From: Vampirovibrio chlorellavorus | GTDB lineage: Bacteria > Cyanobacteriota > Vampirovibrionia > Vampirovibrionales > Vampirovibrionaceae | Length of the DNA stretch: 64,000 bases | Assembly: GCA_903866275.1 (NCBI GenBank) | Contig: CAIPMU010000013.1 | Location: 62,001 to 126,000 of the forward strand | Direction: 5' to 3' | In this document: positions 1,085 to 20,755 of the stretch, piece after piece | Layout of the letters: every line of letters begins with the position of its first letter | How positions within the stretch are numbered: the stretch's first letter is position 1 | The notes under the pieces: model-generated | Databases searched by the model: none | What the model was told of the DNA's origin: nothing | What the model saw: the letters and a program-made list of their open reading frames with translations, nothing else | Program-made: the position numbers and the translations under genes

Positions 1085-1150
1085 ATAGCCTGCTTTCCAA
1101 GGTTTTCCGTGGGACACTCATGGGACACTTAGGGCCAATATCCTTCTAAA

Positions 1151-1221: not shown

Positions 1222-1256
1222 GATGGAGGCTTATAGGCTAAATATCAGCGGAATCC

Positions 1257-1303: not shown

Positions 1304-1331
1304 TTTTTTATTCGGAGCATCTTTTTAAATA

Positions 1332-1895: not shown

Positions 1896-2014
1896 TTCAG
1901 TTTACCCTCACAATCAAAGACAAATAGTAAAGTCAGTATTTTCTCAAAACTTGCACAATAGCTGTATAAATTTGGGGAATTGTGATCCCCACATTAACTT
2001 CACCCTTTCAAGCC

Positions 2015-4298: not shown

Positions 4299-5489
4299 TT
4301 ACTTCTGGCTTTGCAACTGTGCTTCCACGCGGCGGTAGAATTGGCTGAGTTGCTCTACGTGCGGATGCACATCGAAGCGCTGGCCGTGGGCTTGCAGCTG
4401 GGGCACCAGGGCGGCCAGCTCGGCGTCGGATTGGTTCACCACGCGCAGCAGGCGATCCACGAAGGCGTCTTCATCGCCCACGGGCACCAGCCAGTCCTGT
4501 GCCTCGGGCAGGCCCATCACTTCGGGGATGCCACCGGCGGCATAGGTCACGCAGGGGCGACCAAACAGCATGGATTCCAGCACGCGCAGGCCAAAGCCTT
4601 CCTGCAACGAGGTGCTCACCGTCACGGTGCTGGCCGTTACCAGACGCGGGACATCCGAGCGGAAGCCCAGATACTGCCCATGCGGCGCAAGCTCAGGATC
4701 TTGGGTGAAGGCGGCGGTGAATTCATCCGCCTGTGGGCCATGCCCGGCCACCAGAAAATACACGGGCTGCTGACGACGCGGGTCGTTCAGGAGCCGCTTG
4801 GCAATGCGCAAAAACGCGGCCGAATTTTTATCCGGCGCCAGGCGACAGATAAAACTCACCACGCGCGCATTTGCCGGAATGTTCAATTCCGCGCGGATGG
4901 CTTGCGGGTCGAGGCCTTTCACGCTGGCCATCATGGTCGCGGTGGGCAGGCCGTTATACAGCACTTCCGCCTGAAAGTTTTTGGGCAAAAAGCCTTCCCG
5001 ATAGAGGCGCTGGCGTTCATAATCGCTCACCACCAGCATGCCACTGAGATACGGGGTTAAATTGCGCAACAACGGGCGACTCAAGCCATACACAAAGCGC
5101 ATCAGATCGTTGGGCGCGTTCTCCAGATTGTTGGGGCCGCCGTAGCTATGATAGGTAAACACCAGCGGAAAGCCCGCCTTGCGGATGGCCGATTGCTCCA
5201 CCCGACCCTTGTGAATATGCACCAAATCGGGCTGCTCGGCCTTGAGGATCTCCAGCAGACTGCGCATCACCCGGAAATCCAGCACACGCAAAATGGGCGT
5301 ATGGATATGCGTGGGCAGCCCGTGCACCTTGACTCCGGCCGAGCGCAACTGCTCGGCCAATCGTCCACCCTCGGTCACGGCGGCGCTAACCTCGTAGCCT
5401 TGCTGTTGCAACAGCGGCAGCGTGCAGTTCAGGTAAACCTCAATGCCGCCCCAGGCGTGGTTATCGGGTAAAAAGTGCAAAATTTTCAT
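4299..5489 (-). CDS. GT4-family glycosyltransferase
   Basis: The 396-residue protein is a GT-B fold retaining glycosyltransferase that would transfer a sugar from a nucleotide donor to a lipid-linked polysaccharide intermediate at the cytoplasmic face of the membrane. The N-terminal acceptor domain starts with the GGIEVYL glycine loop at residues 14-20. The C-terminal donor domain has the EX7E motif EGFGLRVLE near residues 298-306, followed by GRPCVTYAAGGIPEVM. Length is normal for the family. It is the last gene of the polysaccharide operon and is a close paralogue of the next gene upstream, sharing the same start and the same donor-site sequence. The donor sugar cannot be read from the sequence. 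Confidence 0.88.
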   Translation of the reverse strand: MKILHFLPDNHAWGGIEVYLNCTLPLLQQQGYEVSAAVTEGGRLAEQLRSAGVKVHGLPTHIHTPILRVLDFRVMRSLLEILKAEQPDLVHIHKGRVEQSAIRKAGFPLVFTYHSYGGPNNLENAPNDLMRFVYGLSRPLLRNLTPYLSGMLVVSDYERQRLYREGFLPKNFQAEVLYNGLPTATMMASVKGLDPQAIRAELNIPANARVVSFICRLAPDKNSAAFLRIAKRLLNDPRRQQPVYFLVAGHGPQADEFTAAFTQDPELAPHGQYLGFRSDVPRLVTASTVTVSTSLQEGFGLRVLESMLFGRPCVTYAAGGIPEVMGLPEAQDWLVPVGDEDAFVDRLLRVVNQSDAELAALVPQLQAHGQRFDVHPHVEQLSQFYRRVEAQLQSQK

Positions 5490-5523
5490 GGGGTTTTCCT
5501 GTGGTTTTCATCGGGTTGTGGCT

Positions 5524-6852
5524 TTAAATGGGGGAAGGCACTTTGGCCTTGGCTGTCTGCGCGACGCCTTGCACGGACTGAAATCTGTTTGCCATCGGGT
5601 ATGATTGGCCGATGGTCATTGCAGAACGGCGCACGCCGACAGGCAAGGTCCACGCAATACGATCATAAAACGCTTCCAGTTTTTTGACGTGACGGGCCAC
5701 GTCAAACTGCTCCGCATGCTGTTCCAACACGGGAGACAATGCGGCCAGCGCCTCACTGGGCTGGTTCACGGTTTCAATCACCGTGTTCACAAAAGCATCT
5801 TCATCGCCGATGGGCACCAGCCACGGTTGCGCCTCCGGCAGGTTCATCACTTCCGGGATGCCACCGGCAGCATAGGTCACGCAAGGCTTACCCAGCAACA
5901 GGGATTCCAGAATGCGGAGACCAAAACCTTCCTGCAACGAGGTGCTGACCGTCAGATCGCTGGCTGAAATAATTTGAGCGACATCCGAGCGGAAGCCCAG
6001 ATACTGGCCGTGTCGAGACAGCACCGGGTCCTGACTGAACGCCTTTCGGAAGGCCGCAGCATGTTTGCCATCACCCGCCACCAGGAAATACACCGACTTG
6101 CTCAACGCGGGATGCGTGGCCACGCGTCTCGCGATGCGCAAAAACGCCTCCGTATTTTTATCCCGCCGCAACTGGCAAACATAACTGATCACAAAAGCCT
6201 GCTCGGGAATATGCAACGCCCTACGGAACGTCTCGGCTGAAAAACCGTTCAGACTGGACCGCATGGCCTCCAGTGGCAAGCCATTGTGAATCACCTCAAT
6301 GGGGAAATTCGCCGGGGCAAAGGCTTCTCGGTAAAGTCGGGCTTTTTCATAGTGGCTTACAATGGTCATGCCACTCAACGCGGGGAGTAGCCCACGAAAC
6401 AGGGGGCGCGCCAGCTTATAAAGCCACTGCACCAACGGATTGGAGGCCTGCTCGATATTAAACGCGCCCGCGTACCCGTGATAGGTGTAAACCATCGGGT
6501 AACCCGCCCAGTGAATCAGCGATTGCTCGATCCGACCGTTGTGCACATGCACCAGATCCGGCTGAACTGCTTTCAGAATAGGGAGCAGGTGCCAATACAC
6601 CGACAGATCGATGCAGCGCGCCCACGGATTGACCCAGGCCGAACGCCAGAGTGATTTTTTCCGGAACGGAAATGGAATGCCCCAAACGGGTATCCCCGCT
6701 TTTTTCAGGGCATGAAACAACGGACTGTCCTGCGTCACGACTGCGCAAATCTCATGTGCCCCGCTGGCTTGCAGCTTGGGCAGCGTGTGGCTGAGGTAGA
6801 CTTCAATGCCACCCCAGACATGATTTTCTGGCATAAAGTGCAGGATCTTCAT
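5524..6852 (-). CDS. GT4-family glycosyltransferase
   Basis: The 442-residue product is a GT-B retaining glycosyltransferase. It opens with HFMPENHVWGGIEVYL (residues 5-20), which is nearly the same as the paralogues on both sides, and carries EGFGLRILE (EX7E, about residues 307-315) and GKPCVTYAAGGIPEVMNLPE in the donor domain. It has about 45 more residues than the downstream paralogue, mainly in an insert near residues 60-80 (FRKKSLWRSAWVNPWARC) and a C-terminal tail of about 30 residues. It starts only 3 bp after the stop of the truncated copy upstream, so the genes are almost certainly co-transcribed. Likely function: adding a sugar during repeat-unit assembly; specificity unknown. Confidence 0.88.
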   Translation of the reverse strand: MKILHFMPENHVWGGIEVYLSHTLPKLQASGAHEICAVVTQDSPLFHALKKAGIPVWGIPFPFRKKSLWRSAWVNPWARCIDLSVYWHLLPILKAVQPDLVHVHNGRIEQSLIHWAGYPMVYTYHGYAGAFNIEQASNPLVQWLYKLARPLFRGLLPALSGMTIVSHYEKARLYREAFAPANFPIEVIHNGLPLEAMRSSLNGFSAETFRRALHIPEQAFVISYVCQLRRDKNTEAFLRIARRVATHPALSKSVYFLVAGDGKHAAAFRKAFSQDPVLSRHGQYLGFRSDVAQIISASDLTVSTSLQEGFGLRILESLLLGKPCVTYAAGGIPEVMNLPEAQPWLVPIGDEDAFVNTVIETVNQPSEALAALSPVLEQHAEQFDVARHVKKLEAFYDRIAWTLPVGVRRSAMTIGQSYPMANRFQSVQGVAQTAKAKVPSPI

Positions 6853-6855
6853 GAA

Positions 6856-7365
6856 TTATCCAGTTGCGGTGATGGTTTTGGGAAATAACGCCTGATGCGG
6901 CGCCTGATACTGTTTTTTGGGTTCCAGTTCGGAAAACACGCGGTCATAGAAGGCTTCCATTTTTTCCACGTGCCGACTGATGTCAAATGCCTGGTCAAGC
7001 GCTTGCAACACGGGAGCCAGCGTTGCTAAAGCCTCATCCTCCAGATTGATCGCGGCCACCAGCACCCTGGCAAAAGCGGCTTCATCGCCCAGAGGAACCA
7101 AGCAGTCCTGTGCTTCGGGGAGTGCCATCACTTCTGAAATACCACCAGCCGCATAGGTCACGCAAGGTTTGCCTTGCAGCAGAAATTCCAGAATCCCAGC
7201 CTCCTTCAACCAATGAAACAACGGGCTATCCAGCGTCACGGCGGCACAAATCTCATAGAGCCCACTGGCCTGTAGCTTGGGCAGCGTGTGTTGCAAATAC
7301 ACTTCTATCCCCCCCCAAACAAAATTTTCCGGCATAAAATGCAGGATTTTCTGTTTCGTTATCAT
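6856..7365 (-). pseudogene. Internally deleted GT4 glycosyltransferase copy
   Basis: The 169-residue frame joins the first 57 residues of a glycosyltransferase (KILHFMPENFVWGGIEVYL to KEAGI) directly to the last 110 (LEFLLQGKPCVTYAAGG onward). Compared with the neighbour at 5524-6852, about 250 central residues are missing, including most of the acceptor domain and the first Glu of the EX7E donor motif. The frame is kept and a strong ribosome binding site (GGGAGG, 8 bases from the ATG) remains, so a short protein could still be made, but it should have no transferase activity. The join falls at an Ile codon present in both flanks, as expected from recombination between short similar sequences. 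It arose by duplication of the gene family followed by an in-frame deletion. Confidence 0.85.
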
Positions 7366-7536
7366 CAGGCTAACCTCCCTCGACTGGGCATTTTGCCCAG
7401 GTCATTATAGCCCGGAAGCAGGTCCAGCGGATATTCAGCTTGCAGAGATTCAGGCCGTAAATTACAGGGGAGGAACAAAACCATTTTTTGGCACTCGAAG
7501 ATCAGGGCGAGTAAGGAGCAGAACGATGAACCACGC

Positions 7537-8850
7537 TTAATGCCGGACAGCACCGTTGGCCGATACCGTAGCGGGTTCCAGAATGCGCGTAAAGACCTTA
7601 ATGAAATTATTCACATACGTGTCAATATCAAACTGATGCGCCCGCTCCAGCAAACGGCTGTTCAGCTGATGTTTTTCTTCAGGCGAAAGATCCAGAATTT
7701 CAAAAATTTTGCGATAAATACCGTCCAGATCACCGCTCGGGACCATCATGCGCTCCCCTTCCGGGAAGTCCAGAATTTCGGCAATCCCGCCCACTTTGTA
7801 GGAAACACAGGGCGTACCCGCTGCAATGGATTCCAGAATACGCAATCCAAAACCTTCCTGCAGGGCAATACTTATCGTGAGATCGCAGCAGGCCAGCAGT
7901 TCGGGAATATCACGACGATACCCAAGACACACCCCTTTGCCTTTCAGCAAGGGCTGATTGAACTCTTCCACAAAGTGGGCTTTCAGAGAACCTTCACCAG
8001 CAATGAGAAAGAAGAATTTCTTATCAGGGTGCTCGGATACCAGCTTTTTAGCTAGTTCCAGAATCTCCAGGGAGTTTTTATCCGGATCCAACCGTCCCGG
8101 ATACCCGATGACGATGGCATCCGGATCAATCCCGAACTCCTGCTTGTAACGCTGAATGTCGGCTTGGCTGGCACGCTGGGAAATATTCTTGATGTCCAGA
8201 CCGTTATAAATCACGGTACCCGGTGCATTTTTGGGCACAAACCCTTCCTCAATCAACCGCTCCTGCTCGGAACGACTCACAAACGTCAGCGCATCCAGAA
8301 AAGGGACCATCCAGCGGAACAGGGGTAAAAGCATCGTGTTCAGCAGGCGTTTTTTGGGGCTGGTAATAAACTTCAGGTTAAACGGACTGCCGTAACCATG
8401 CACGGTATACACCAGCGGGTAGCCCCAGAGCTTGAACAGGGCATTTTCAAGACGCCCGTGATGGGCATGAATCAGGTCAGGCTTGACCCGATCCAGAATC
8501 TTCTTCATATGAACAGTGGTGTGCCAATCAAACGTGCGGAAAATCAGGCGGGGATACTGTTTTTTGAAAAACTCTGGCAGGTAATCCGGGAACGGAATGC
8601 CATGCGCCTGCACGCCCGCTTCGCGCACCATATTGAAATAGGGGGTTTGATCAGTACAGACAATATGAGACTCAAACGGCCCCAATTCATCCATCCGCTT
8701 GCTAAAGCCCAAAATGTTCTTTTCAATCCCACCCAGATTCCCAAAATCCTGATTCACATGCAGAATCTTGAATTTTTTGGGAGAGCCAGAAGACTGATGC
8801 TCCGGGGGCATCTCGTGATTTTGAGAACGTTCTTGTTGTGCAGCAGGCAT
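7537..8850 (-). CDS. GT4-family glycosyltransferase
   Basis: The 437-residue protein is a GT-B glycosyltransferase more distant from the three copies downstream. After a 27-residue hydrophilic start it has KILHVNQDFGNLGGIEKNIL (glycine loop), and in the donor domain GYPGRLDPDKNSLEI (phosphate and UDP contacts) and EGFGLRILE (EX7E, about residues 331-339), followed by GTPCVSYKVGGIAEIL. The Lys in DPDKNS and the two Glu are the usual catalytic or donor-binding residues of GT4. A GGAG ribosome binding site precedes the start. It lies between the acetyltransferase gene and the deleted copy in the same direction, so it is part of the polysaccharide operon. Sugar specificity is unknown. Confidence 0.88.
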   Translation of the reverse strand: MPAAQQERSQNHEMPPEHQSSGSPKKFKILHVNQDFGNLGGIEKNILGFSKRMDELGPFESHIVCTDQTPYFNMVREAGVQAHGIPFPDYLPEFFKKQYPRLIFRTFDWHTTVHMKKILDRVKPDLIHAHHGRLENALFKLWGYPLVYTVHGYGSPFNLKFITSPKKRLLNTMLLPLFRWMVPFLDALTFVSRSEQERLIEEGFVPKNAPGTVIYNGLDIKNISQRASQADIQRYKQEFGIDPDAIVIGYPGRLDPDKNSLEILELAKKLVSEHPDKKFFFLIAGEGSLKAHFVEEFNQPLLKGKGVCLGYRRDIPELLACCDLTISIALQEGFGLRILESIAAGTPCVSYKVGGIAEILDFPEGERMMVPSGDLDGIYRKIFEILDLSPEEKHQLNSRLLERAHQFDIDTYVNNFIKVFTRILEPATVSANGAVRH

Positions 8851-8949
8851 AGGGTTGAATCTCCAACAGGGGTCAATGACATTTTAAACATAGCGGAATC
8901 AATACTAATAAAAATAAGATTGAGGCTTAATTTGCTTTGAGCAACGGAA

Positions 8950-9609
8950 CTACGTTGTTTTAGTGCGAGCGGGCACCAAACGTAACCCGGTGGAACGACT
9001 GGAGGGAGGCTTGGGTGTCGCATCCGACAAGCCTTCCTCCGGCAGTGACTCAGAAGCTTCATTTAAATATTTGATCACTTTAGCAGGGACGCCACCCACC
9101 AGACAATTGGGCGGCACATCCTTGGTGACGAGGGCGCCTGCAGCCACGACCGAACCTTGCCCAATGCGCACGCTGTTCAGTATGGTCACATTGGCCGCAA
9201 TCCATACAAAATCTTCCACGATAATGGGATTGGTTTTAATAGTCGGTCGTAAGGACCTGAAGTTCGAATGGACTTCGTGGGTGCCATTAATGAAGTAGAC
9301 GTTGGGCCCAATGTTGCAGTATCGACCAATCTGAATCGGCGAGGGGGCATCAATGTAGCAGAACATGTTCATGGTGGAATAGTCGCCAATGGAAAAATTA
9401 TGCCGCTTAGACTGCATGGTGATACCGGGGCGGATATAGCAGGCTTTGCCAATCTTGAAACCCATCAACCTCAACATGAAAGGCCGGACATACTGATTCG
9501 CCAGGTAAGAGGACCCCAACCAGTCCGTGAACCGAAAGGATTGCAAACTCACCGTGCAATCCCAAAGTTCTGACAATTTTTGACGAGTGTTGGTCAAATT
9601 GAATTTCAT
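8950..9609 (-). CDS. Hexapeptide-repeat (left-handed beta-helix) O-acetyltransferase
   Basis: The 219-residue product belongs to the LacA/NodL/WcaF group of acyltransferases, which use acetyl-CoA to acetylate a sugar hydroxyl. Hexapeptide repeats ([LIV]GxxxX) begin at about residue 55 (IGKACYIRPGITMQ) and continue through IGRYCNIGPNVYFI. The family signature NGTHEVHS, holding the catalytic His, is at about residues 111-118, then VWIAANVTILNSVRIGQG and the closing GGVPAKVIKYL. The last 30 residues are a charged, Pro/Ser-rich tail. Its place between glycosyltransferase and flippase genes indicates that it decorates the repeat unit before export. Confidence 0.88.
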   Translation of the reverse strand: MKFNLTNTRQKLSELWDCTVSLQSFRFTDWLGSSYLANQYVRPFMLRLMGFKIGKACYIRPGITMQSKRHNFSIGDYSTMNMFCYIDAPSPIQIGRYCNIGPNVYFINGTHEVHSNFRSLRPTIKTNPIIVEDFVWIAANVTILNSVRIGQGSVVAAGALVTKDVPPNCLVGGVPAKVIKYLNEASESLPEEGLSDATPKPPSSRSTGLRLVPARTKTT

Positions 9610-9639
9610 AATGACAACGATTCCATTTGGGGCATGAAA

Positions 9640-11193
9640 TTAACTGAGGGTTTCCAGAGTCGCACTCTTATTACGTTGGGCGCGAAGTTTATTCAGAAAA
9701 GCCGTCACGTACTCCAGTTCAAAACCGGAAGCCGTGGTGAGAAACCAAATCGCGAAACCGGCTGCAAAGGAGGTTCCGGTACAGAACAGGAGATTGAGTA
9801 ACAAAGACTTGCTGAACCAGCCCGTGCCCTTAATCAGCCAGATAATCAGGGCAGCCGCCGAAATTGGCAGAATCATCTTCAGATGGATCTCCCGCAGGTA
9901 TTCACCCAAGGAAATGGCCAGATCCTGACAGGCTTTACGGATGATGACGAGTTGGTGAAATGTACCACGGACCAGAATGGTGGACATCACCACACCGGGT
10001 AAACCATAGATCTTCACGAGAAAAACGCAGATGCTGACCTTGGCGATGGCCATAAAGATGCTGCTAATGCTCACATACTGATGCCGTCCGGCCGCAAACA
10101 GGAAGTGGTTGGCAGGCAGATACAGCGTGGCGCTAATAATACCGGGAATCGCCAGCAGGAACACCGGCCATGATGCGGCCAGGTCAATATTTTCCTTGGC
10201 AAAAAAGCGGAAGAAGTCGACGTAGAAGAAGTAGAGAATCAACACAATCAGATTGATCCCCAAATACAGCACGCTGCTTAAACGCAAGAACAGCAGTCGA
10301 CTTTTTTCCTTTTCCTGTAAAACGTGTAACCGGGTGAAGACGGGATATACCCCGGCAGAAAACTGAACCGGAAACTGGGCCGCCAGATTCAGGAAACGAT
10401 AGGTAAAGGCGTACAAACCTACATCCCGCAGCGTCAGAAATTTGGAGATAATCATCAAGTCCAGACGCCCCGACATAATGTCACTGACGTTCTTAATCAG
10501 GGAATGTATGCTGATTTGCAGCAAATCCTTGGCTTTTTCCAGGTTAAAGTAGCCAAAGTCTAGACTTTCGGGCTGAGTCTTCATGCAGTGGTAAAAGACC
10601 AGAGCAAACTTGATGATCGCCGCACCAAAGCGCAGCAATGTAATCTCCTTCAGGCCCATCCCCATATACAGAAGGATAAAAATCCCGCCATTGGAAATGA
10701 GGTAATACAGGGTCTCACTGGTATTCACACACTGATACTTGCACTTGGCCTGCAACACAGCGGCAAAGTACCCCTGAAACAGGGTCAAGGCCCCTTCTAG
10801 CACAATAATATACAAACAAAAAACAGACAGTTGAACCAGATTGGCGTCAATATTGAGAAAATGGGGAATGCCCGGCACGATAAAGGTGGTCATCAGGACC
10901 AGCGCGGTGATCATCAAGTACAACACCAGCCCGGTTGAGAGTAACTGCCGGGTCTCCAGCTGATCTTCCTTGGCGTGTGAGGTGCTGAGGCGCTGAGTCA
11001 AGCCACTGGTAAAACCCAGATCCATGGCGATCAGGAGTTCAACCACGCCCAACAGGAGCACATAGAGTCCAAATTTCACCCCACCCAATGAGCTCAGAAT
11101 GGCAGGATAGACAATGATATTCAGGACGGTCTTGAGGGTCAGCCCCCCAATACCGGTGAGCGCACCCAATAAAAATTGTCGATTAAGATTCAT
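9640..11193 (-). CDS. Polysaccharide repeat-unit flippase (Wzx-like, MOP superfamily)
   Basis: The 517-residue protein is an integral membrane protein with about 12-14 hydrophobic segments, the first at LGALTGIGGLTLKTVLNIIVY. It would move the lipid-linked repeat unit from the inner to the outer face of the cytoplasmic membrane. The start (GGLTLKTVLNI...SSLGGVKFGLYVLLLGVVELL...DLGFTSGLTQRLS) has the pattern typical of the polysaccharide biosynthesis flippase family: a first helix followed by a G-x-x-x-FG-x-Y and DLG motif. Length is normal. Charged residues are few apart from cytoplasmic loops and the C-terminal tail. The neighbours, polymerase and acetyltransferase, fit a Wzx/Wzy pathway. 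Confidence 0.88.
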   Translation of the reverse strand: MNLNRQFLLGALTGIGGLTLKTVLNIIVYPAILSSLGGVKFGLYVLLLGVVELLIAMDLGFTSGLTQRLSTSHAKEDQLETRQLLSTGLVLYLMITALVLMTTFIVPGIPHFLNIDANLVQLSVFCLYIIVLEGALTLFQGYFAAVLQAKCKYQCVNTSETLYYLISNGGIFILLYMGMGLKEITLLRFGAAIIKFALVFYHCMKTQPESLDFGYFNLEKAKDLLQISIHSLIKNVSDIMSGRLDLMIISKFLTLRDVGLYAFTYRFLNLAAQFPVQFSAGVYPVFTRLHVLQEKEKSRLLFLRLSSVLYLGINLIVLILYFFYVDFFRFFAKENIDLAASWPVFLLAIPGIISATLYLPANHFLFAAGRHQYVSISSIFMAIAKVSICVFLVKIYGLPGVVMSTILVRGTFHQLVIIRKACQDLAISLGEYLREIHLKMILPISAAALIIWLIKGTGWFSKSLLLNLLFCTGTSFAAGFAIWFLTTASGFELEYVTAFLNKLRAQRNKSATLETLS

Positions 11194-11303
11194 CTAAGAC
11201 TCCGAGAGATTCGCCGGGGGAATGGAAAACAGGATTAGAGATTCTCTTTTGAAACGGTGGGTGAGGATAAGCAAACAACCATCGGGGATCGCCCTGGATT
11301 GAA

Positions 11304-12899
11304 TCAAGAACTGGCTACTTCAGCCGGTGAAGCCTCTGACATTGGGGAAACCTGAGATGACTCGACAGTCATGCCCGGTTGGGTCAAAAAGCGACTGTAT
11401 ATGAGAGTGGTTAATAACCAGAATACCAAACAGTCATTCAAACTGGTAATACATTCATCCATCATGGAACCAATCAGGAGAAATAATGTGAGTCCGACCA
11501 CCGAAAGCACCAGGGGCTCACGCCGCTGAAAATAGCTCTTCAGGCTGTGTATGCCCGCAGCCAGAAACCCCGAAAATATCAGCATGCCGCTGATGCCCAT
11601 ATCGTATAAAAAGTTAATAAAGGCATTGTGTACAAAAATGGATTGCTCGCTACTTTGTTTGTTCGTATTGAATAAAAACCGGTAAAGCTCCATATTGCTC
11701 GCGGTCAGACCATGCCCCAGCCAAATGGAGCTAGACGTAATATTGCCCAGCAGATACCCCCACACCGAATAGCGCCATCGCAAGCTGCGAGTATCATTGA
11801 AGCGATCATTAATGGTGGAAACCAAATCTTGACCGGTATACGCCTGGTAACCCCACAAGGTCAGGATCAGAAAACTGAAGAATAACAAGAGGGGCAACGC
11901 AATTTTTCCCCGGATTTTACGGTCAAACAGGCTGAGTCCAAAGAACAGCACACAGGCCGCGCCAAAGCCCACAAAAGAATTTTTGGACATCGACAGCAGG
12001 AAGGTAAGAATGTTCACCACAATCGTCAGACCCAACACGGGGCGAATTTTGGTCCCTAATCCCTCTGTGTCGTTGCTCTGTTGATAAAAAAGCCCGATAT
12101 AGTAGATTAGCAGCAGACCCTGAACTTTCCCAAACTCGTTGGGGTGAGAGTATAATCCGGTACTGCGCCGAAACCCTTCCAGCACCATCGTAAATATATC
12201 CAACGGAAAGCCAATCAGGGTGGCAATCCCGTGCAACAGGCCAAACGTAATCAATGCGATGTTAAACAGGTTGAACAGTTTAATTCTGGCCTCCGGGCTT
12301 TGCGCCGGACGAAAACAGGCGGCAATCAGGCCCACCCCCACAAAGGTGAAAAAGTAATCGTAAATCTTGGTTTGGGAAATACTACTCGCACTGACCAGAG
12401 ATACGGTCGGGTCAATGAAATTCAGGTTGAACAGGAAGTAATAGGCCAAAAACAGTGAGAAAAAGCTGACCAGGTACTTAAAATAATTGTACTTTTCATT
12501 GATGTATTGAAAATTTTTGTAGAGCAGTAGAACCGTTGGCGTCACGACCAATAGCGTGGTCAGCGGTTTCAACGGAAGACTATGTCCACTCTTCAGGGCG
12601 ATTAGACTCACCAGATAATGCATCAGCTGAATCAGCAGAACGCAATAAAGCGCAGGAATAACGGGATGTTTCAGGACGAGCTTAAGATAACGCGTATATA
12701 AAAAAAAGCCGAACCCCAAGGTAATCAGCAGTGGAATCGTGCTGGCACCCACCCGGTGCTTGAAGACCTGAATACCGCAAGCAGGCAGTACCACATTCGT
12801 GAACACCGGAATCAGGCAGGGCAACAGTAACGTCATCAACCAGTATTTCAGTGATGCCTTTTCGTGCTGTTTTTGCGTATGGACTACGGCGTTAAACAA
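11304..12899 (-). CDS. O-antigen polymerase/ligase-like membrane protein (Wzy type), copy 1
   Basis: The 531-residue product has about 12 hydrophobic helices and the large periplasmic loop of the Wzy_C/O-antigen ligase group. Residues about 245-265 contain RRSTGLYSHPNEFGKVQG, and the loop near residues 345-420 contains DRFNDTRSLRWRYSVWGYLL and GHGLTASN; such Arg- and His-bearing loops are where polymerases and ligases bind the polyprenyl-linked sugar. It would join repeat units outside the membrane. Copy 2 lies immediately upstream and aligns along its full length (the same NxFINFLYDMGI and SMxKNSF segments), so the pair is a tandem duplication. Whether this copy polymerises or ligates cannot be decided from sequence alone. 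Confidence 0.83.
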   Translation of the reverse strand: MFNAVVHTQKQHEKASLKYWLMTLLLPCLIPVFTNVVLPACGIQVFKHRVGASTIPLLITLGFGFFLYTRYLKLVLKHPVIPALYCVLLIQLMHYLVSLIALKSGHSLPLKPLTTLLVVTPTVLLLYKNFQYINEKYNYFKYLVSFFSLFLAYYFLFNLNFIDPTVSLVSASSISQTKIYDYFFTFVGVGLIAACFRPAQSPEARIKLFNLFNIALITFGLLHGIATLIGFPLDIFTMVLEGFRRSTGLYSHPNEFGKVQGLLLIYYIGLFYQQSNDTEGLGTKIRPVLGLTIVVNILTFLLSMSKNSFVGFGAACVLFFGLSLFDRKIRGKIALPLLLFFSFLILTLWGYQAYTGQDLVSTINDRFNDTRSLRWRYSVWGYLLGNITSSSIWLGHGLTASNMELYRFLFNTNKQSSEQSIFVHNAFINFLYDMGISGMLIFSGFLAAGIHSLKSYFQRREPLVLSVVGLTLFLLIGSMMDECITSLNDCLVFWLLTTLIYSRFLTQPGMTVESSQVSPMSEASPAEVASS

Positions 12900-12928
12900 C
12901 TGGTGGAAGCCTTTATTAAAAGCCTAAA

Positions 12929-14503
12929 CTATGACAAGTCTGGATCATTCAAACTAACTGTCATCAAACGAGCAGAAACGTCATTTGGTTTGTCTTTTAC
13001 AAATGGCGCTACAAAGTAACTGTAAATAATTGTAACGAGAAGCCAGAATAGCAGACTGCTATCCATAAAGGTAATACATTCATCGACCAAGGAGCAGACA
13101 ACAATAAAGATGGCTAGAGATGCAATCGTCAACATCATTGGCTCATGAGACCGCAAATAAGTCTTAATACCTGAGTAAGCTGCCACGATAAAGCCTGAAA
13201 ACACAAGCATGCCCCATATGCCCATATCGTATAGAAAACTAATTACTGCGTTATGGACAAAGATTGACTGTTCACTACTCTGTTTGCTTGTATTAAACAA
13301 AAAGCGATACAACTCAATATTACTAGAAGTCAATCCGTGGCCGAACCAAACAGTATTTTTGTCAATATTGGCAAGCAAGTAGCCCCAGACACTATATCGC
13401 CACTCCAAACTACGGTTGTCATTAAATCGATCAGTAAGTGTCGCCAATAAATCCTGGCCCGAGTAAAGCTGATAACCCACAAGAATCAACGTTAGAAAAG
13501 CGACAAATATCGCTACCGGGGTTAAGACCTTACTCCTAATTTTGGGATCGAACAGACTAATAGCCAGAAAAATGCTCAAGGCCAAACCAAAGCTAGCAAA
13601 AGAGTTTTTAGACATGGACAACATAAAGCCCAATAAATTGGTGATCACTGTAGCAATCAACAAAATCTTGTATTTAAAAAGCTCTGGCTTATTCAACTTA
13701 ATATAAGAATAATAAAGACCTATATAATATATCAACAATAACCCTTGACTTTTCGCGTACTCATTTGGATGCGAATATAATCCCGTGGCTCGCCGAAAAC
13801 CTTCCAAAACCATTGTAAATTGATTTAAGGGGAATCCAAAAAGAGTAATTAATCCGTGAATCAAGCCGAAGAGAATCAAAAACAGGTTAAAAGTCTGAAA
13901 TAACTTGAACTTACCATCAAGAGTACTAACTTTCTGAAAACTGCAACTAACTAGTGTCAGTCCAACAAAAGTGTAAAAGTAGTCATTCAACTTTCCCTGA
14001 GAAATACTGGTGTTAGAAGTGATAGCCACACCCGGCTCAACAAAGTTATAGTTATAGAATATAAAAAATAAAAGATAAATAACAAAGAAAGCCACTAAAT
14101 ACTTGAAATAATTATACTTGTTATATAAGTATTTAAAATTTTTAATCAATAATAAAGAAGCAGGAAAAACCAAAATCACCATGTGAATTATTCGAACCGG
14201 GAAATGTTTGCCCAAAGCCTCCATTACCAATGCCGCATAAAATAGCAGACGAATAAAAACAGCACTATACAAAGCTAGGACTAAAGGGTTCTTAAAGGAA
14301 TATTTAAGGTACTGGACGTATAATAAACCACCCAACAGGATTGACAATATCGTCGGGATTGTAGTGGGCCCGAGGCGTTGGGACAGGGTTTGAATGCCCA
14401 GCATCGGCAGCAGGACATTGGTCACCAGTGGAATCAGGCAGGCGATGACCACCGTGAGCAGCCAATAGGGGACCTTTGGCTGCTCAGGTTGGTTGTTTTG
14501 CAT
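12929..14503 (-). CDS. O-antigen polymerase/ligase-like membrane protein (Wzy type), copy 2
   Basis: This is a full-length paralogue of the downstream gene (about 12 helices; RRATGLYSHPNEYAKSQG; DRFNDNRSLEWRYSVW; GHGLTSSNIELYRFLF). The frame is open from 14614, but that would overlap the Wzz gene by over 90 bp; the ATG at 14503 (MQNNQPEQ), 20 bp after the Wzz stop, gives 524 residues and matches copy 1 better. Base use is striking: from the stop to about 14345 the gene is AT-rich with many AAT/ATA/TTA codons, whereas the first 50 codons match the GC-richer neighbours. This suggests that the body came from another genome or that one copy was partly replaced by recombination. Function as for copy 1. 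Confidence 0.83.
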   Translation of the reverse strand: MQNNQPEQPKVPYWLLTVVIACLIPLVTNVLLPMLGIQTLSQRLGPTTIPTILSILLGGLLYVQYLKYSFKNPLVLALYSAVFIRLLFYAALVMEALGKHFPVRIIHMVILVFPASLLLIKNFKYLYNKYNYFKYLVAFFVIYLLFFIFYNYNFVEPGVAITSNTSISQGKLNDYFYTFVGLTLVSCSFQKVSTLDGKFKLFQTFNLFLILFGLIHGLITLFGFPLNQFTMVLEGFRRATGLYSHPNEYAKSQGLLLIYYIGLYYSYIKLNKPELFKYKILLIATVITNLLGFMLSMSKNSFASFGLALSIFLAISLFDPKIRSKVLTPVAIFVAFLTLILVGYQLYSGQDLLATLTDRFNDNRSLEWRYSVWGYLLANIDKNTVWFGHGLTSSNIELYRFLFNTSKQSSEQSIFVHNAVISFLYDMGIWGMLVFSGFIVAAYSGIKTYLRSHEPMMLTIASLAIFIVVCSLVDECITFMDSSLLFWLLVTIIYSYFVAPFVKDKPNDVSARLMTVSLNDPDLS

Positions 14504-14522
14504 CAAAAACGTACTGGACACG

Positions 14523-16064
14523 CTATACCAAACTTTTGTTGGTTTTGCCGTTGCTGCCATTCCCGTTGGGAATTGCGGCACTGACGGGGCCATCATTCTG
14601 GAACTGAGTGGCAAACATCTTTTTCAGATCGTCAACACCCAAACCATTGGACGAGTTGCTGCGTTTCAGCAACACGCTGGCAACCCCGCAGGCCAGACCC
14701 AGAATGAAATCGAAAAACAGCAAGTGGGGCTGACGGGGGAAAGACGCCTCAATCGGCAAGCGTGGGGAATCCACGATGAAGACGTTACTAAGGCTTTGAC
14801 TTTCTTTCAGCTGAGCATCCAGCTCTTTCTCTTTCAGGGTTTTCAAAGAACTGTTCAGCGCGGACTCTTCCATTTCATAGTTGGCCAGTTTAGCTTCAAT
14901 CTGAGGCAACGCCTTGGCACGAGATTCCAGTTGGTGCAAGTAGCTGCTCAAAATACGGTTTTTGGAGTTCAACTGCTCAGCTTCAGTGGCGGCACTCACC
15001 ATATCACCCACCGCATGACCGCGGGTTTCATCGGAGATGGCCTGAACATTCGCCGAACCATGACGCCCCACAGAGCGAGTGGTTTCCTTTTGAATGCTGG
15101 CTTGCAGTTCAGCGATGTGGTTATTAACTTCCTGAACCTTCACACTTTGCTCGGTGTATTTGGTCAGCAACGAGGCCCGCTCGGATTGTGCAGTGTACAA
15201 TTCAGATTGCAGCTTGGCCAGGGTTTCGTTACGGCCTAAACCCGCAGCCCGCAGTGCATCGCTGGCATTCATCCCCAACAGGGATTTATAACCACGCACC
15301 TGACTATTTTTACCCACCGCTTCGGCACTGGTCATTGCCAAACTGGTTTTAATGTCCATTTTGGCCTTGGTCAGGTTAATGTTCTCTTCAGCCGAATTCA
15401 CCACGCCGTGCTGGGCCTTGAATTGACTACTTTGCTCCTGCACCAGCACCAGCTTTTGTTCAATATCGCTGATTTGCTGAGCCAGATAACGGCTACGTTC
15501 GTGCTGCTCAGTACGGTTAATGCCCAGACTGGCGTCCCGGAAAGTATTCAAAATCACTTCCAGACCTTCCTTGGCAATCTCTGGATCTTCCCATTTGAAC
15601 TCAAAACTGATCATGTCAGTGCCCGGCAAGTTCGCATATTTAATGAACTTGCTACCGCTACCAAAGAATTTCTCCCAATCCGCTGTGGTTTTGATTTTTT
15701 CCTTTTCCAGCACTTCCGGGTGACGGGTCTGGAAGTAGTGGTAGAGGTTATCCATGAAGATGGTGGTCTTCAACAGGCCCATCGTATTCATGACCGAACT
15801 GGTCGATTGGGCGGCGGTCATTTCATAGCTATCGGCAGTGACATACTTGGCCGTCAGGGCGGTATCCTTGATCATGACCATGCCGGAGGAGACATAGGTG
15901 GGCTTGTATCCCACCAGGGTGTAAACGGAGGTCAGCAACCAGACAAACAGAAAGACCGTGACAAACAACCGCTTGTTCTGACGCAAGAGCGTCATCAGCG
16001 TTTGCAGGTTCAACTTCTGGGCCTGGGAAGTGTTGAGCGAGGAGTTGTCTTCAAGAGGTTTCAT
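14523..16064 (-). CDS. Chain-length determinant / polysaccharide copolymerase (Wzz/GumC-like)
   Basis: The 513-residue protein would control chain length of the polymer by forming a ring in the inner membrane with the polymerase. A first membrane helix lies at residues 34-54 (LFVTVFLFVWLLTSVYTLVG), then a periplasmic region with the N-terminal Wzz fold, a long coiled coil (about residues 190-430, Gln/Glu/Leu-rich), a Pro-rich stretch (SPRLPIEASFPRQP) and a second helix near 447-467 (FDFILGLACGVASVLL). There is no C-terminal tyrosine kinase domain; the cytoplasmic tail is short and Asn/Gly-rich. It lies 44 bp after the export protein gene in the same operon. Confidence 0.88.
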   Translation of the reverse strand: MKPLEDNSSLNTSQAQKLNLQTLMTLLRQNKRLFVTVFLFVWLLTSVYTLVGYKPTYVSSGMVMIKDTALTAKYVTADSYEMTAAQSTSSVMNTMGLLKTTIFMDNLYHYFQTRHPEVLEKEKIKTTADWEKFFGSGSKFIKYANLPGTDMISFEFKWEDPEIAKEGLEVILNTFRDASLGINRTEQHERSRYLAQQISDIEQKLVLVQEQSSQFKAQHGVVNSAEENINLTKAKMDIKTSLAMTSAEAVGKNSQVRGYKSLLGMNASDALRAAGLGRNETLAKLQSELYTAQSERASLLTKYTEQSVKVQEVNNHIAELQASIQKETTRSVGRHGSANVQAISDETRGHAVGDMVSAATEAEQLNSKNRILSSYLHQLESRAKALPQIEAKLANYEMEESALNSSLKTLKEKELDAQLKESQSLSNVFIVDSPRLPIEASFPRQPHLLFFDFILGLACGVASVLLKRSNSSNGLGVDDLKKMFATQFQNDGPVSAAIPNGNGSNGKTNKSLV

Positions 16065-16108
16065 TCAATCTTTTGCCTATCAGGTTACTAACTAATATGG
16101 TCTCAAAT

Positions 16109-17236
16109 TTACTTGGAGGACTTGCTGCCACCCTGCAACGCACGGTTCCAGCCACCAAAGCCGTAAGTTTGCGCAGAATAACCGCCGATCATCGCGGCCT
16201 CCTGGAACGGAGACAGGATGTGAGCCACTTGCTCCATATAACGGCCTGCCTTGTAGGTCTTGGCCTCGCCCACATACACAATGTCGTTGGGACGCAGGGT
16301 CAGGTCGTTCTTGCGGGCATCCACAAACAGGGTGGTAAAGTGGGTGTCGTCCGTAAAGCGACGAACCGCCACCGCGTTTTGTAACCCTTGAGGATTATAG
16401 CCGCCTGCCAGGGCAATCGCAGTGGACAACAAGGGGGTTTCGCCTTCCAGGTGAATCAGGTTGGGATTACCCACCTGGCCCAGCACACGCACAGGGAAGC
16501 TCTTGGGCCCAATCACCGAGTTAGCGACGACTTTGAAGTCTTCGTCAGGCATCATCTGACCTTCGCCCAATGTCGGGATAAACACGCTGTCCCCGGAGTT
16601 CAGCCAGGGGTTTTGAGACGCATCAGCTTCTTTCAGGACTTTCCAGAGATTGTAGTTGGCCACTTCACCAGTTTCGGCGTTCTTGACCTGAACATTGGAC
16701 AGATCGGAGTTCAGTTTAACCCCACCGGCATTGGCCAGAATATTCATCAAGTTTTGCTCGGTACGACGATTGGCATCGACAGTACCCGAGCGATTCACTT
16801 CATGAGAATCCGTAACCACTTCCACAGGACCCAGTTTGCTCACGGCGCCAGCCAGGTAAAAGACGGCCGGACGGGTATTCACCACAGTCAGGCTGACTTT
16901 ATAATTGCGAATTGTCTGGTTCAGCTGGGCTTCAATCTCTTGCTGGGCTTCATCCAGGGTTTTACCAGATACATTGATCTGACCGACAATCGGGAAGCTG
17001 GCGTTACCATCAGAACGCACCAAAACCGACTCGGAGGAGTATTCGATTTGCGGATACACGTTAATGTTTAACATATCGCCAGAACCGATCCGGTAAGTGC
17101 GAGACACCTGATACGATATACGCCCGTTAAGGGGTTCACTGGCAAGAGCTGGACTCAGTTGCCCGACTTGCAAAGAGATGCAGAGTGCAATGGCCGTCAT
17201 GGCCAGACCTTGTTTAGGAATCAGATTGTTTAGCAT
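16109..17236 (-). CDS. Polysaccharide export outer-membrane protein (Wza/OPX family)
   Basis: The 375-residue product carries a signal peptide (residues 1-32, cleaved after ALA in SPALASEPL). No lipobox Cys follows, so it is probably not a lipoprotein. The Poly_export domain starts at YRIGSGDMLNINVYPQ (about residues 48-63) and includes VRSDGNASFPIVGQINVSG. Two SLBB-like domains follow, one at AVFYLAGAVSKLGPVEV and one at FPVRVLGQVGNPNLIHLEGE...AIALAGGYNPQG, with a closing D-I-V-Y-V-G segment. OPX proteins form the periplasmic and outer-membrane channel for exopolysaccharide. It is the first gene of the operon and has a recognisable promoter 45 bp upstream. Confidence 0.92.
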   Translation of the reverse strand: MLNNLIPKQGLAMTAIALCISLQVGQLSPALASEPLNGRISYQVSRTYRIGSGDMLNINVYPQIEYSSESVLVRSDGNASFPIVGQINVSGKTLDEAQQEIEAQLNQTIRNYKVSLTVVNTRPAVFYLAGAVSKLGPVEVVTDSHEVNRSGTVDANRRTEQNLMNILANAGGVKLNSDLSNVQVKNAETGEVANYNLWKVLKEADASQNPWLNSGDSVFIPTLGEGQMMPDEDFKVVANSVIGPKSFPVRVLGQVGNPNLIHLEGETPLLSTAIALAGGYNPQGLQNAVAVRRFTDDTHFTTLFVDARKNDLTLRPNDIVYVGEAKTYKAGRYMEQVAHILSPFQEAAMIGGYSAQTYGFGGWNRALQGGSKSSK

Positions 17237-17286
17237 GGAAATACCTAAAGGGTTGTGACAGTAATAAATGGAGCTGAGGTGATTTG

Positions 17287-17314
17287 GATATAAAAGTTAA
17301 ACAAGCGACGTCAA
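17287..17314 (-). promoter_or_regulatory. Sigma-70-type promoter for the polysaccharide operon
   Basis: Read on the minus strand: TTGACG (17314-17309), a 16-base spacer, TATATC (17292-17287). This would start transcription about 45 bases before the export protein ATG. Five of six bases match at -35 and four of six at -10. No other good promoter is seen between the operon genes. Confidence 0.5.
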
Positions 17315-17413
17315 ATCATTATCAAATTTCAGAGAGATAGTTATTTAAAGTTGAAGGGTTTTTGAAATTAATAGGGAGACGAGTTCAGATTTACATAAAT
17401 TAACACAAACAGA

Positions 17414-17447
17414 TCGCACTGAGTGGATAATCGCACTGAGCGGATAG
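17414..17447. repeat. Two tandem copies of a 17-bp unit
   Basis: The unit TCGCACTGAGYGGATAR is present twice in direct tandem, differing at two positions. It lies about 100 bp upstream of the polysaccharide operon promoter, where an activator could bind; one unit is about 1.6 helical turns. Confidence 0.5.
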
Positions 17448-17841
17448 ATGAGGTGTCGAGATGTTGATGAGTTGTAACGGGTAAAAGAACAAGTCAACTC
17501 TCTAACAAAACTAGGATGCTAACCCAAGAGCATACATGCTATGTTTTGGTCTGTCTAGATATTGGTTTCATCCTAAAATTAAACAATTAACCGGACAAAA
17601 GGGGGGATTCAGCCCGCTTTTACCCATCACAGTCGGTAGAATCTGGCGATTGAGCATCCTCTGGAGTTTGAAACAGGTAAACAGTAGCCTCTTCCTGAAG
17701 GCTAACAATACACAAACTCGCTGATTGTTTTAATACCCTTAATTTCTTTAGATTGATTTGACTTTTAAGAGCGCTTCAAGCGACACTAGTTCAGAGTAGT
17801 CTAAACCTTTGGTCAAACATCCCTAGACGGCTCCAAATGCA

Positions 17842-17875
17842 AACCAATTTCTCAACTGTTGGTCAGAAATTGGTT
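17842..17875. promoter_or_regulatory. Perfect 11-bp inverted repeat (operator or RNA hairpin)
   Basis: AACCAATTTCT and its exact complement AGAAATTGGTT are separated by 12 bases. There is no run of T on either side, so it is not a typical terminator. It lies about 300 bp before the nucleotidyltransferase gene; a protein-binding site is the simplest reading. Confidence 0.5.
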
Positions 17876-18170
17876 CTGTAAACAGTGCCAACCCGTCATT
17901 TAGAGCTGAGCGTCAAGCACCCGATTTTCCCAGATCCTTCAAACCATCTCACGGATTCAGCAAAGACGTTACCCAACAGAAGCAAAGCCAGCCTTTACAC
18001 ACCAGCAGACTGATTGTCGATATTTATTAAAAGACTCTAGCCTGCCATCTGGTTCAATAGTTTAAATCTCACCCTGAACAGTCATGTTTTTGTCTTATTT
18101 TTTCCTTATTCTAATCCTTCAGGATTTCTGTCAATTTACACGCGACTAACCAAATGGAAACCATGCACCC

Positions 18171-19526
18171 ATGATAGCCACCAATGAACAAACCTCTGTA
18201 CAATCCGCCATTGTCTTGAACACGCCAATCGCCGCCGATCGCCTGGCACTTGAGCCCGGCAGCGAGGCAAACCAATACCGGATTATCGACCGCCAGTCCG
18301 GCGAATGCCTTGGTCAGGTCAGCCAGTCTCCCGACAGTCAACATGCCGTGGAGTTATTCTGGGGCAAGGGCGGCTTCATGGGCCTGATTACCTCTCCGTT
18401 GGACGTGAAATATTTTGCACTGCCGGGAGGCACCGTTCAGGTGCAAGGCACTAGCTTGCAACTGGAAGGCAGCCCCATCACCAGCAACGCCACCAAAGCA
18501 AGAACCACGCATCAACCCGTCCAACCCCAACAACACTCGCTGCAAGCCAGCATTCTGGGTGCTGGACTGGCCACCCGCTTCGAGCGTATTTCCGGCGACA
18601 GCACCGACTACTCTAAGCCCGCCGTACCGGTCGTCGGCCACCGCAGCGTGATTGAATGCATCGCAAACGGACTGGCCCAGCATGGCTTTACCCACCTGCT
18701 GGTAAACACCTTCTTCAAGCCAGTGTCCCTCAAGCACAATCTTTCCCGCTGCGATGCCAAACAGGTGCAGTACATTGACGAATCCGAACCCTCCGGCACC
18801 GCTGGCGGCTTACGCAAAATGCTCACCGACCCACAATTTGCCGGATTGTTGGATGAAAGCAAATCCCTGCTGATCGTGCAAGGCGACTCCGTGACAGATG
18901 CCGATTTTTCCAGCCTGATGGAAGCCCACATGGCACACGGCGCGCTGGTGACGATCGGATGTCAGCCCGTGGCAGAAAAAGACGTGGATAAATTTGGCAT
19001 CATCGTCACCGATTGTTCAGGCGAAGATGGACAATCTGGCCGGATCGTGGGCTTTCAGGAAAAGCCAAAACTGGAAGAAGCCAAGTCCCGTCTGGGTAAC
19101 ACCGGTTTTTATATCTTCTCCCCGCAATCCTACCCCATCATCAAGGAAACCTACGCCCAATTGCTCCAGCAGGCGCAAGCGGCGGCTCAGGCCAAACAGG
19201 AGCCTGTCCCGTCCGAAGTGGCCATGGACTTTGCAATGGACGTTTTCCCTGCGATTCTCAAACGCACCCAGGAAGACGCCTCGGTCGGTGCATTCTGGGC
19301 CCAAACCGTCACAGGCTACTGGAGCGACATCGGCAATCCCAGCCAGTATCTGGAAACCGTCCATGATATATACGCAGGCAAGGTGAACTTCCCCTTACCC
19401 GAAGCGCTCAGCCAGTACTATCGCGACGGTGTCATTTTCTGGGAAGGTGCCGCTGCCATCGCTGATCAGGAAGGCGCTGAACTCAAGGGCAATGTTGTTG
19501 TCGCCAAACCCTTTCAGAAAGCCTGA
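18171..19526 (+). CDS. Sugar-phosphate nucleotidyltransferase (NDP-sugar synthase) with N-terminal extension
   Basis: Residues about 125-451 form a nucleotidyltransferase domain that would join a sugar 1-phosphate to an NTP and release pyrophosphate. The signature loop is ILGAGLATRFERISGDSTDYSKPAVPV (nucleotide binding, with the Lys of SKP), followed by SGTAGGLRK, the VQGDSV metal-binding Asp region, VGFQEKPK, the NTGFYIFSP segment and a late SDIGNPSQYLE. The first 125 residues form an unrecognised domain with beta-rich character, absent from ordinary GlmU/RmlA/GlgC proteins. The gene is divergent from the polysaccharide operon, so it probably supplies an activated sugar to it; which base and sugar cannot be told. 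An ATG seven bases earlier is closed at once by a stop. Confidence 0.85.
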   Translation: MIATNEQTSVQSAIVLNTPIAADRLALEPGSEANQYRIIDRQSGECLGQVSQSPDSQHAVELFWGKGGFMGLITSPLDVKYFALPGGTVQVQGTSLQLEGSPITSNATKARTTHQPVQPQQHSLQASILGAGLATRFERISGDSTDYSKPAVPVVGHRSVIECIANGLAQHGFTHLLVNTFFKPVSLKHNLSRCDAKQVQYIDESEPSGTAGGLRKMLTDPQFAGLLDESKSLLIVQGDSVTDADFSSLMEAHMAHGALVTIGCQPVAEKDVDKFGIIVTDCSGEDGQSGRIVGFQEKPKLEEAKSRLGNTGFYIFSPQSYPIIKETYAQLLQQAQAAAQAKQEPVPSEVAMDFAMDVFPAILKRTQEDASVGAFWAQTVTGYWSDIGNPSQYLETVHDIYAGKVNFPLPEALSQYYRDGVIFWEGAAAIADQEGAELKGNVVVAKPFQKA

Positions 19527-19585
19527 AGACACGCACCTTCAGAATCAATCTGACGGAATCAACCTAAAACATTTCTGTACTAAAG

Positions 19586-19620
19586 AAGCGCCAATGCCGA
19601 TTCCGACATTGGCGCTTTTT
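19586..19620 (+). terminator. Rho-independent terminator after the nucleotidyltransferase gene
   Basis: An 11-bp perfect stem (AAGCGCCAATG / CATTGGCGCTT) with a 10-base loop is followed by TTT. It sits between two convergent genes and may serve both. Confidence 0.8.
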
Positions 19621-19657
19621 GATCTACCATCCTTGCATCAAAAAAATAAACGCTAAC

Positions 19658-20755
19658 TCAAGCACTAAGTCGTGGATCGCTGCTGACCGTTTGAAAATAA
19701 CCGTCATTCAAGTGTTTCATCTCCAAAAGAATTTTAAGTTCGGGCCATTTTTTCCAGCACGTCTCCAGGAGGTCGCCAGTCTCGCTGAAATTCTTCAAAA
19801 TCACTCGCAAAGATTGAGAATCAAACTCTGCCGAGCGAATCGCTCGAATGGCCTGATCACCCAGAATTTTCTGCCCCTGGAATTCTTCTTTCAACCTCAC
19901 GTTCAATGCCCAATTCGACAATGAACCAGACTGTAAGAACTCCTGCAAAACCTTGGCACCTTCCAGATAAGATCCTGAAAGTTCAAAAGCCGATTGATAC
20001 GCTAACGCATCAGGCCGATTCGCGTCATTTACAAACTTTTTTTTCTCAGGTTTTTCATTCTCAGGTTTTGATTTCCGGGAAAAAGATCCACGATGCAACG
20101 GAGCTCTGGGAAGCCCTAACGCATTTTGCAACGAGTCCTTTTTCAGCGATGCTTCAGGTTGAGGGGTTCTTTCAAGCTGAAGAGAACTATCAGGTTGAGA
20201 CCCGCTGTGATAAAAGACGCCAGGTTGTGGAAAATGCAGCGTATGAGGCCTACCTTGCACCTGCATGAAAGGCACCTGCTTGAAAGCATCATCCGGTCTC
20301 ACGGCAGGGGGCATCACAGCTGCATTTCCAGTTGGCAGAGACTGGAACGACGGGACTGGACTGATTCCGGGCCCGGATGGAGGCTGATGCAGCAAAGGCA
20401 TAAACGGCGGCGAATAAAGAAAATCAACAGCGCCTGCAGGGGGCATCATGTAGAAATAGTGCTGCGGATGTTGATGATAAGGAAGATGAGGCAGAGGAGC
20501 CCAGTGCTCCGCAGAAGAAGACGCCTGAATGGAAGCAGCCGGAAGTGATGCCGACTGTCTGTCCTGATAGAAAACTTGCTCAGACTCAGATGAAACCCCA
20601 GCAGCACCGCTCGATACTGAGGTGCCGTTATTCGGCACTTTTTCGAACGGTTTATTACTGCCTGAGAATGGTTGGTCCTTTTGGCGTCTGCGAGCACCGC
20701 CAAACTGTAACAACGAATCGGAGGATGTTAAAGGGATGGGACAAGTGATAAACAT
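19658..20755 (-). CDS. Hypothetical protein, Pro/His/Ser-rich with a helical C-terminus
   Basis: I do not recognise this 365-residue protein. The first 240 residues are low-complexity and probably unfolded, with clusters of Pro, Ser, Gln and His (LPHLPYHQHPQHYFYMMPP; PGISPVPSFQSLPTG). Residues about 225-245 are strongly basic and acidic mixed (SRKSKPENEKPEKKK). The last 120 residues look like a compact helical domain (YLEGAKVLQEFLQSGSLSNW, QAIRAIRSAEFDSQSLRVIL). There is no signal peptide or membrane helix. AAGGA about 10 bases before the ATG supports the start. It stands alone between a terminator and the tRNA-Ser gene. Confidence 0.6.
   Translation of the reverse strand: MFITCPIPLTSSDSLLQFGGARRRQKDQPFSGSNKPFEKVPNNGTSVSSGAAGVSSESEQVFYQDRQSASLPAASIQASSSAEHWAPLPHLPYHQHPQHYFYMMPPAGAVDFLYSPPFMPLLHQPPSGPGISPVPSFQSLPTGNAAVMPPAVRPDDAFKQVPFMQVQGRPHTLHFPQPGVFYHSGSQPDSSLQLERTPQPEASLKKDSLQNALGLPRAPLHRGSFSRKSKPENEKPEKKKFVNDANRPDALAYQSAFELSGSYLEGAKVLQEFLQSGSLSNWALNVRLKEEFQGQKILGDQAIRAIRSAEFDSQSLRVILKNFSETGDLLETCWKKWPELKILLEMKHLNDGYFQTVSSDPRLSA

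Follow-up and report, generated by a model that had tools for sequence, protein, structure and literature searches.

A composition break inside one of two tandem Wzy-type polymerase genes in an exopolysaccharide operon of a Vampirovibrio relative

Gain, loss and recombination of wzy polymerase genes in polysaccharide loci are already known (PMC3715488). For Salmonella, that account describes gain, loss and partial duplication of wzy genes both inside the O-antigen clusters and elsewhere; a duplicated part of wzy is reported for group D3, and what is left of the old wzy in groups B1 and D1 is a remnant. Here we describe two tandem wzy-type genes, copy 1 and copy 2, within positions 62001-126000 of contig C13 of a draft genome; this 64-kb stretch is called the window, and coordinates are those of the window unless another contig is named. 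Unlike the remnants of B1 and D1, the tandem copies both have open, full-length frames, and one of them is compositionally mosaic. In copy 2 a GC-rich 5' end is followed by an AT-rich body, and on balance we lean towards reading it as a mosaic gene, in which the catalytic body was replaced by that of an AT-rich orthologue and the resident 5' end was kept. It is composition alone that carries this reading. Reshuffling of this kind is known for surface-sugar genes, so that such a mosaic is instructive, not surprising.

Vampirovibrio is an alga-killing bacterium, and the source genome is that of a relative within the genus. The 3.0-Mb draft consists of 20 contigs, with an estimated contamination of 2.31%, and the contig carrying the operon is 204 kb long.

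Tandem polymerases and described Wzy systems

Judged by its genes, this leftward operon is predicted to make an exopolysaccharide by the Wzx/Wzy-dependent route; it is accessory, and its two tandem Wzy-type polymerases form a lineage-specific pair. It brings together genes for Wzx, Wzy, co-polymerase and Wza, the co-polymerase being recognised by a GNVR match below the cut-off (20.8 bits) and by gene context. The same genome has a second locus on contig C18, with counterparts in genomes G001-G004, and the window locus is additional to this C18-type locus. The core wzy of the genus resembles the pair in gene order (wza, co-polymerase, wzy, wzx) and is 30-33% identical to it, but there is one wzy per core locus and no such composition break. 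When 146 genomes were searched, the source genome included, 11 (again with the source genome) had a match, and adjacent copies were seen only in the source genome; several of the other genomes are fragmented. Phrase searches of the literature for a double wzy retrieved no paper, from which we do not claim that none is in print.

Copy 2 (12929..14503, minus strand) encodes 524 amino acids counted from the ATG at 14503; a longer frame to 14614 would overlap the upstream gene. Its paralogue, copy 1 (11304..12899, minus strand), has a TTG start and encodes 531 amino acids. A preliminary description of this DNA had observed that the two polymerases align along their length, and they do so over the full length with 53% identity. 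Both score above the Pfam gathering cut-off of Wzy_C (PF04932; 31.7 bits), copy 1 with 51.3 and copy 2 with 54.2 bits, and with their open full-length frames both look intact. A 12-row alignment has 46 columns that are invariant with both copies included, the VHN and YDxG positions among them, while the FDEM motif is altered in both copies (VDEC, MDEC) as compared to the ten other rows.

The AlphaFold model of copy 2 (mean predicted local distance difference test score 75.5, predicted template modelling score 0.77) found its best match in WaaL, 7tpg_B, with Z 20.2 and a root-mean-square deviation of 5.3 over 364 aligned residues, covering model residues 67-503. Foldseek also related the model to the WaaL-like fold (E 7.1e-05), and the FtsW and RodA rows gave Z 10.8-14.8, below the value for WaaL. 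Thus copy 2 resembles the WaaL/Wzy superfamily (PF04932; 7tpg) in its predicted fold, but its sequence identity to WaaL is 10% and its N-terminal part, approximately residues 1-66, lies outside the matched part. A search of solved structures by sequence, using the alignment, gave no match up to E 1. Operon context favours Wzy over a ligase; the sequence and fold examined do not separate Wzy from WaaL.

Both copies would polymerise the lipid-linked repeat units that Wzx flips, and they may differ in linkage or in preferred substrate; the single co-polymerase encoded upstream would serve both. A study of WzyE/WzzE reports a stoichiometry that would fit a single Wzy in each co-polymerase octamer (PMC10030265). 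As the operon has one co-polymerase gene for two Wzy proteins, these could compete for the co-polymerase or alternate. The preliminary description had suggested that two polymerases might make two linkages or allow switching. Two different linkages are possible; switching is unsupported, since the genes are co-oriented and have no inverted repeat around them. Over 4200-17400 no inverted repeat of at least 20 nucleotides (nt) flanked the two genes, the only pair being at 6098-6141, and no recombinase family was detected among the ten operon proteins scanned.

Composition break in copy 2

Raw GC content is about 0.48-0.53 above 14400, falls at about 14345, stays at 0.31-0.41 over 13000-14200 and recovers in copy 1 to 0.45-0.49. 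At codon positions 1/2/3 it is 0.57/0.38/0.73 in codons 1-56 of copy 2 and 0.37/0.31/0.40 in the rest, with 0.46/0.36/0.59 in copy 1. We conditioned GC at third codon positions (GC3) on the amino acid, with codon preferences learned from 302 open reading frames (ORFs) in 464 kb of this genome. The change point in copy 2 then falls at codon 56, where the logit GC3 offset drops from +0.23 to -1.05 with a likelihood ratio (LR) of 16.1, a value reached in 1 of 200 permutations. Amino-acid content alone was thereby rejected as the cause, because the break stays after conditioning. The gene can accordingly be divided into codons 1-56 (14336..14503, minus strand), of resident-like composition, and an AT-biased body (12929..14335, minus strand).

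Across seven operon genes, the best AT-rich segment ran from 14287 to 12875 or, in a near tie, 12934 (LR 74). Its limits are 14275-14371 at the start and 12773-12958, the junction of copy 1 and copy 2, at the end, giving a length of about 1.4 kb. The preliminary description had copy 2 AT-rich from 12929 to about 14345, with the first 50 codons at the local composition, and these limits show its coordinates to be right. It had also stated that copy 1 lacks such a break; a 5' break is indeed missing from copy 1, where the strongest change point is a lesser drop at codon 468 (LR 10.4). The break in copy 2, which may lie anywhere in codons 44-76, is at the edge of the WaaL-like core, so that almost all of the catalytic fold falls in the AT-rich segment and the resident part amounts to the start and the first helix.

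The offset of copy 2 as a whole is -0.91, as compared to 0.00 to -0.25 for six other operon genes, the lowest value being that of copy 1; the three glycosyltransferases at 4299-7365 were excluded from this run. The gap between copy 2 and its neighbours is thus 0.91 for the co-polymerase gene and 0.66 for copy 1. In all 16 polysaccharide loci compared, from this and related genomes, the gap between the wzy-type gene and its listed neighbours was at most 0.37. Some of these loci are AT-rich throughout, namely G004:C1 (V. chlorellavorus), G007:C4 and G026:C66, and the wzy of the C18 locus has an offset of 0.01. Among 17 homologues including both copies, the offset of the first 60 codons minus that of the rest was +1.07 in copy 2 and -0.92 to +0.73 in the others. 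A family-wide tendency to GC-rich 5' ends was ruled out, the trend being missing in the 16 other homologues, copy 1 included.

The 56-codon 5' cut of the homologue comparison derives from copy 2 itself, a bias which is removed by a scan in which the GC-rich 5' end ahead of the AT-rich body may have any length within 35-120 codons. As background we took 217 ORFs of at least 250 codons, from the window and 400 kb sampled from this genome. Copy 2 ranked first of the 217 (LR 16.1, the next being 10.2) and also first among the 18 membrane-like ORFs. A body offset of -1.0 or lower occurred in three of the 217, copy 2 and two ORFs in the sampled piece L075 (G000:C11:400001-420000).

If copy 2 arose by replacement, the resident 5' end that was kept would comprise the start region and the first helix, about 44-76 codons, and nearly all of the WaaL-like catalytic body would have been swapped by recombination with an AT-rich copy 2 orthologue, the replacement ending near the stop codon or in the gap before copy 1. 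This would mean that a surface-polysaccharide polymerase in a predatory-lineage relative of cyanobacteria can exchange its catalytic body and keep its start and first helix, and that an operon with a single co-polymerase can accommodate a pair of sister polymerases; a division of labour between paralogous Wzy proteins would become testable.

Codon usage, descent and explanations of the break

Codon-usage preference switches at the break. We compared the log-likelihood per codon under the resident table with that under the table of the AT-rich V. chlorellavorus locus. Codons 1-56 of copy 2 (-1.127 resident, -1.487 AT-rich) and the whole of copy 1 (-1.147, -1.308) prefer the resident table, while codons 57-300 (-1.329, -1.086) and codons 301-524 (-1.346, -1.166) prefer the AT-rich type, the body being fitted better by about 0.2 nats per codon. 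The body is also fitted by the AT-rich polysaccharide locus of G007. Since several AT-rich tables fit it, the body is of AT-rich type and codon usage does not name a donor. The break is therefore a change of composition and codon usage beyond amino-acid effects.

Several observations weigh against replacement of the body. Two AT-rich genes of the same genome, both in L075, fit the body nearly as well (-1.118 and -1.216). No donor and no close relative was found across all searches: plasmids gave no match, viral contigs and phages gave none, GTDB contigs searched with the protein gave none, and in a 386-genome sample of the phylum only the source genome matched at E <= 1e-30. Searching GTDB contigs with the alignment yielded 10 loci (24-31%), 7 titled Vampirovibrio or Vampirovibrionales and 3 uncultured cyanobacterium. 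Apart from copy 1, the best match to copy 2 is 33% identical and comes from the same genome. Trees of the N-terminal 65 residues and of the rest, an analysis proposed in the preliminary description, gave no different phylogeny for the two parts: copy 2 is sister to copy 1 in both (100/99 and 100/100), the N-part tree having 81 columns and a bootstrap that was not fully settled. Phylogeny therefore does not show two origins. In the full 17-row tree the pair also stands together (100/99) on a long stem, copy 2 having the shorter end branch. Identity to copy 1 does not jump across the break (23/56 before, 28/74 just after), and in codons 1-56 the two copies use the same codon at 7 of 22 shared amino acids, as against 8.2 expected by chance. 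In the undirected scan copy 2 was about 11th of the 217 ORFs, 10 having a larger LR, and about 5% of ORFs show some break equally strong. A similar scan placed AT-rich segments exceeding LR 74 in 4 of the 20 sampled 20-kb pieces, and over window positions 1-20000 it chose 1335-2026 (LR 71.2) over copy 2.

Of the partial replacement or chimera put forward in the preliminary description, the composition side stood, with a bounded AT-rich segment and a switch of codon usage, and the phylogenetic side did not, with the same phylogeny for both parts and no donor. Chance-level codon sharing and the lack of an identity jump indicate that the 5' end of copy 2 is not a recent copy of the 5' end of copy 1, and recent gene conversion from copy 1 was ruled out on the same figures. 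With the trees, they also imply that any donor was a copy 2 orthologue or a member of its sister lineage. Replacement by an orthologue would change composition and not topology, for which reason it is our preferred reading.

The shared phylogeny also fits a history without any transfer, in which the pair arose by duplication in place with uneven mutation and selection, the break being among the stronger fluctuations of a genome with patchy codon usage. The larger LRs in 10 of 217 ORFs and the low-GC3 patches elsewhere in the genome fit such a history. However, the adjoining sister copy 1 is near the resident composition (offset -0.25), direction and size of the break place copy 2 first of 217, and the body is better fitted by other codon tables, by the 0.2 nats per codon given above, and we consider this history rather unlikely. 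In this patchy genome, the rare features are the direction of the break and its place inside a gene. That two strains were joined within copy 2 by faulty assembly or binning appears very improbable. The draft state of the genome, with its 20 contigs and 2.31% estimated contamination, leaves some room for it, but the reading frame continues through the junction, homology extends over the whole protein with no jump of similarity, and both flanks on the 204-kb contig are near the resident composition.

Other composition changes were noted in this genome. An HNH endonuclease gene (1332-1895, plus strand) lies in an AT-rich patch, the offset being -1.59 for 1335-2026. The RecJ-like gene at 25044-27743 (plus strand; DHH, DHHA1 and RecJ_OB) has its last 60 or so codons sharply AT-biased, with a change point at codon 838 whose LR of 25.1 exceeds that of copy 2. 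The strongest AT-rich coding segment of the sampled background is 10343-12350 of L075 (LR 165, offset -1.47), possibly another imported patch.

The 5' end of copy 2 also carries a strong RNA hairpin in codons 7-16 (14456..14485, minus strand), of -25.0 kcal/mol in 40 nt. Only 1 of 216 other ORF starts had one as strong, and among 12,926 coding windows sampled in steps of 20 nt there was none. The 140 nt at 14384-14523 fold with -50.9 kcal/mol (z -3.63), as compared to z 1.00 and 0.16 for the two 140-nt stretches of copy 2 that follow and -0.01 for the start of copy 1. The hairpin occurs once in the genome; searched against its own genome, the 5' end of copy 2 matched itself, its own inverted stem and weak matches. 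No U tract follows the stem, and thus the hairpin is not a usual intrinsic terminator.

Such a hairpin could itself keep the 5' end GC-rich, which is a further point against replacement. The whole of copy 2 would then be an AT-rich import or a drifted duplicate, with its first 50-60 codons held GC-rich by selection on the RNA, where the hairpin could control translation or mRNA processing at the passage from the co-polymerase gene to the two polymerase genes. Apart from the exceptional folding energies, the early hairpins of several GC-richer wzy homologues, at about -17 to -20.4 kcal/mol (own C18 -18.7; others -19.0, -20.0 and -20.4), speak for this explanation. But the GC-rich stretch extends past the hairpin to codon 56, and strong hairpins are commoner in GC-rich DNA anyway. 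Moreover, the AT-rich homologues G007_C4 (-8.6 kcal/mol), G004_C1 (-9.1) and G026_C66 (-5.4) have neither a GC-rich start nor a strong hairpin, and that of copy 1 is also weak (-9.4). We regard RNA selection as unlikely, though it is the chief competing cause of the GC-rich 5' end.

Replacement of the body by an orthologue, the preferred reading, may be carried further: the resident leader, with start site, first helix and a hairpin setting the amount of polymerase relative to that of co-polymerase, would be fixed, and Wzy cores would be exchanged between strains with a constant paralogue alongside. This extension is speculative and we think it improbable; if true, a cell could change its polymer linkage while keeping a working polymerase.

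Other genes of the operon and the window

Upstream of copy 2 lie the genes for the co-polymerase (14523..16064, minus strand; PCP/Wzz-Wzc-like, 513 amino acids) and for a wza-like export protein (16109..17236, minus strand; Poly_export 73.3 bits, SLBB 38.6 bits). The GNVR score of the co-polymerase is under the gathering cut-off of 27.7 bits, and its homologues adjoin wza and wzy in relatives. Downstream of copy 1, and also on the minus strand, follow genes for a wzx-like flippase (9640..11193; Polysacc_synt_3 33.0 bits, cut-off 23), a hexapeptide acyltransferase (8950..9609; Hexapep 49.1 bits) and a GT4-type glycosyltransferase (7537..8850; Glycos_transf_1 76.8 bits).

Three tandem related glycosyltransferase genes occupy 4299-7365 (minus strand); repeats of 124-300 nt recur among them at 74-80%, which points to local duplication. 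Two of them are GT4-type paralogues, 5524..6852 (Glyco_trans_1_4 74.2 bits) and 4299..5489 (Glyco_trans_1_4 84.5 bits), with a common 300-nt repeat at 75%. Compared with the neighbouring gene at 5524-6852, the third (6856..7365) is missing 780 bp of its interior, a deletion that keeps the frame, as seen by blastn of both halves (77% and 68%), and a 169-amino-acid open frame remains.

Divergent from wza is a nucleotidyltransferase gene (18171-19526, plus strand). In G004 a 59% identical copy of it (C1:37137-38456) adjoins the AT-rich polysaccharide locus. Copies with 64-65% identity occur in G002, G003 and G004:C24, and the stretches fetched around them held no other gene of the window (tblastn, E 1e-10). 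Rfam, at its gathering thresholds, found one tRNA in the window.

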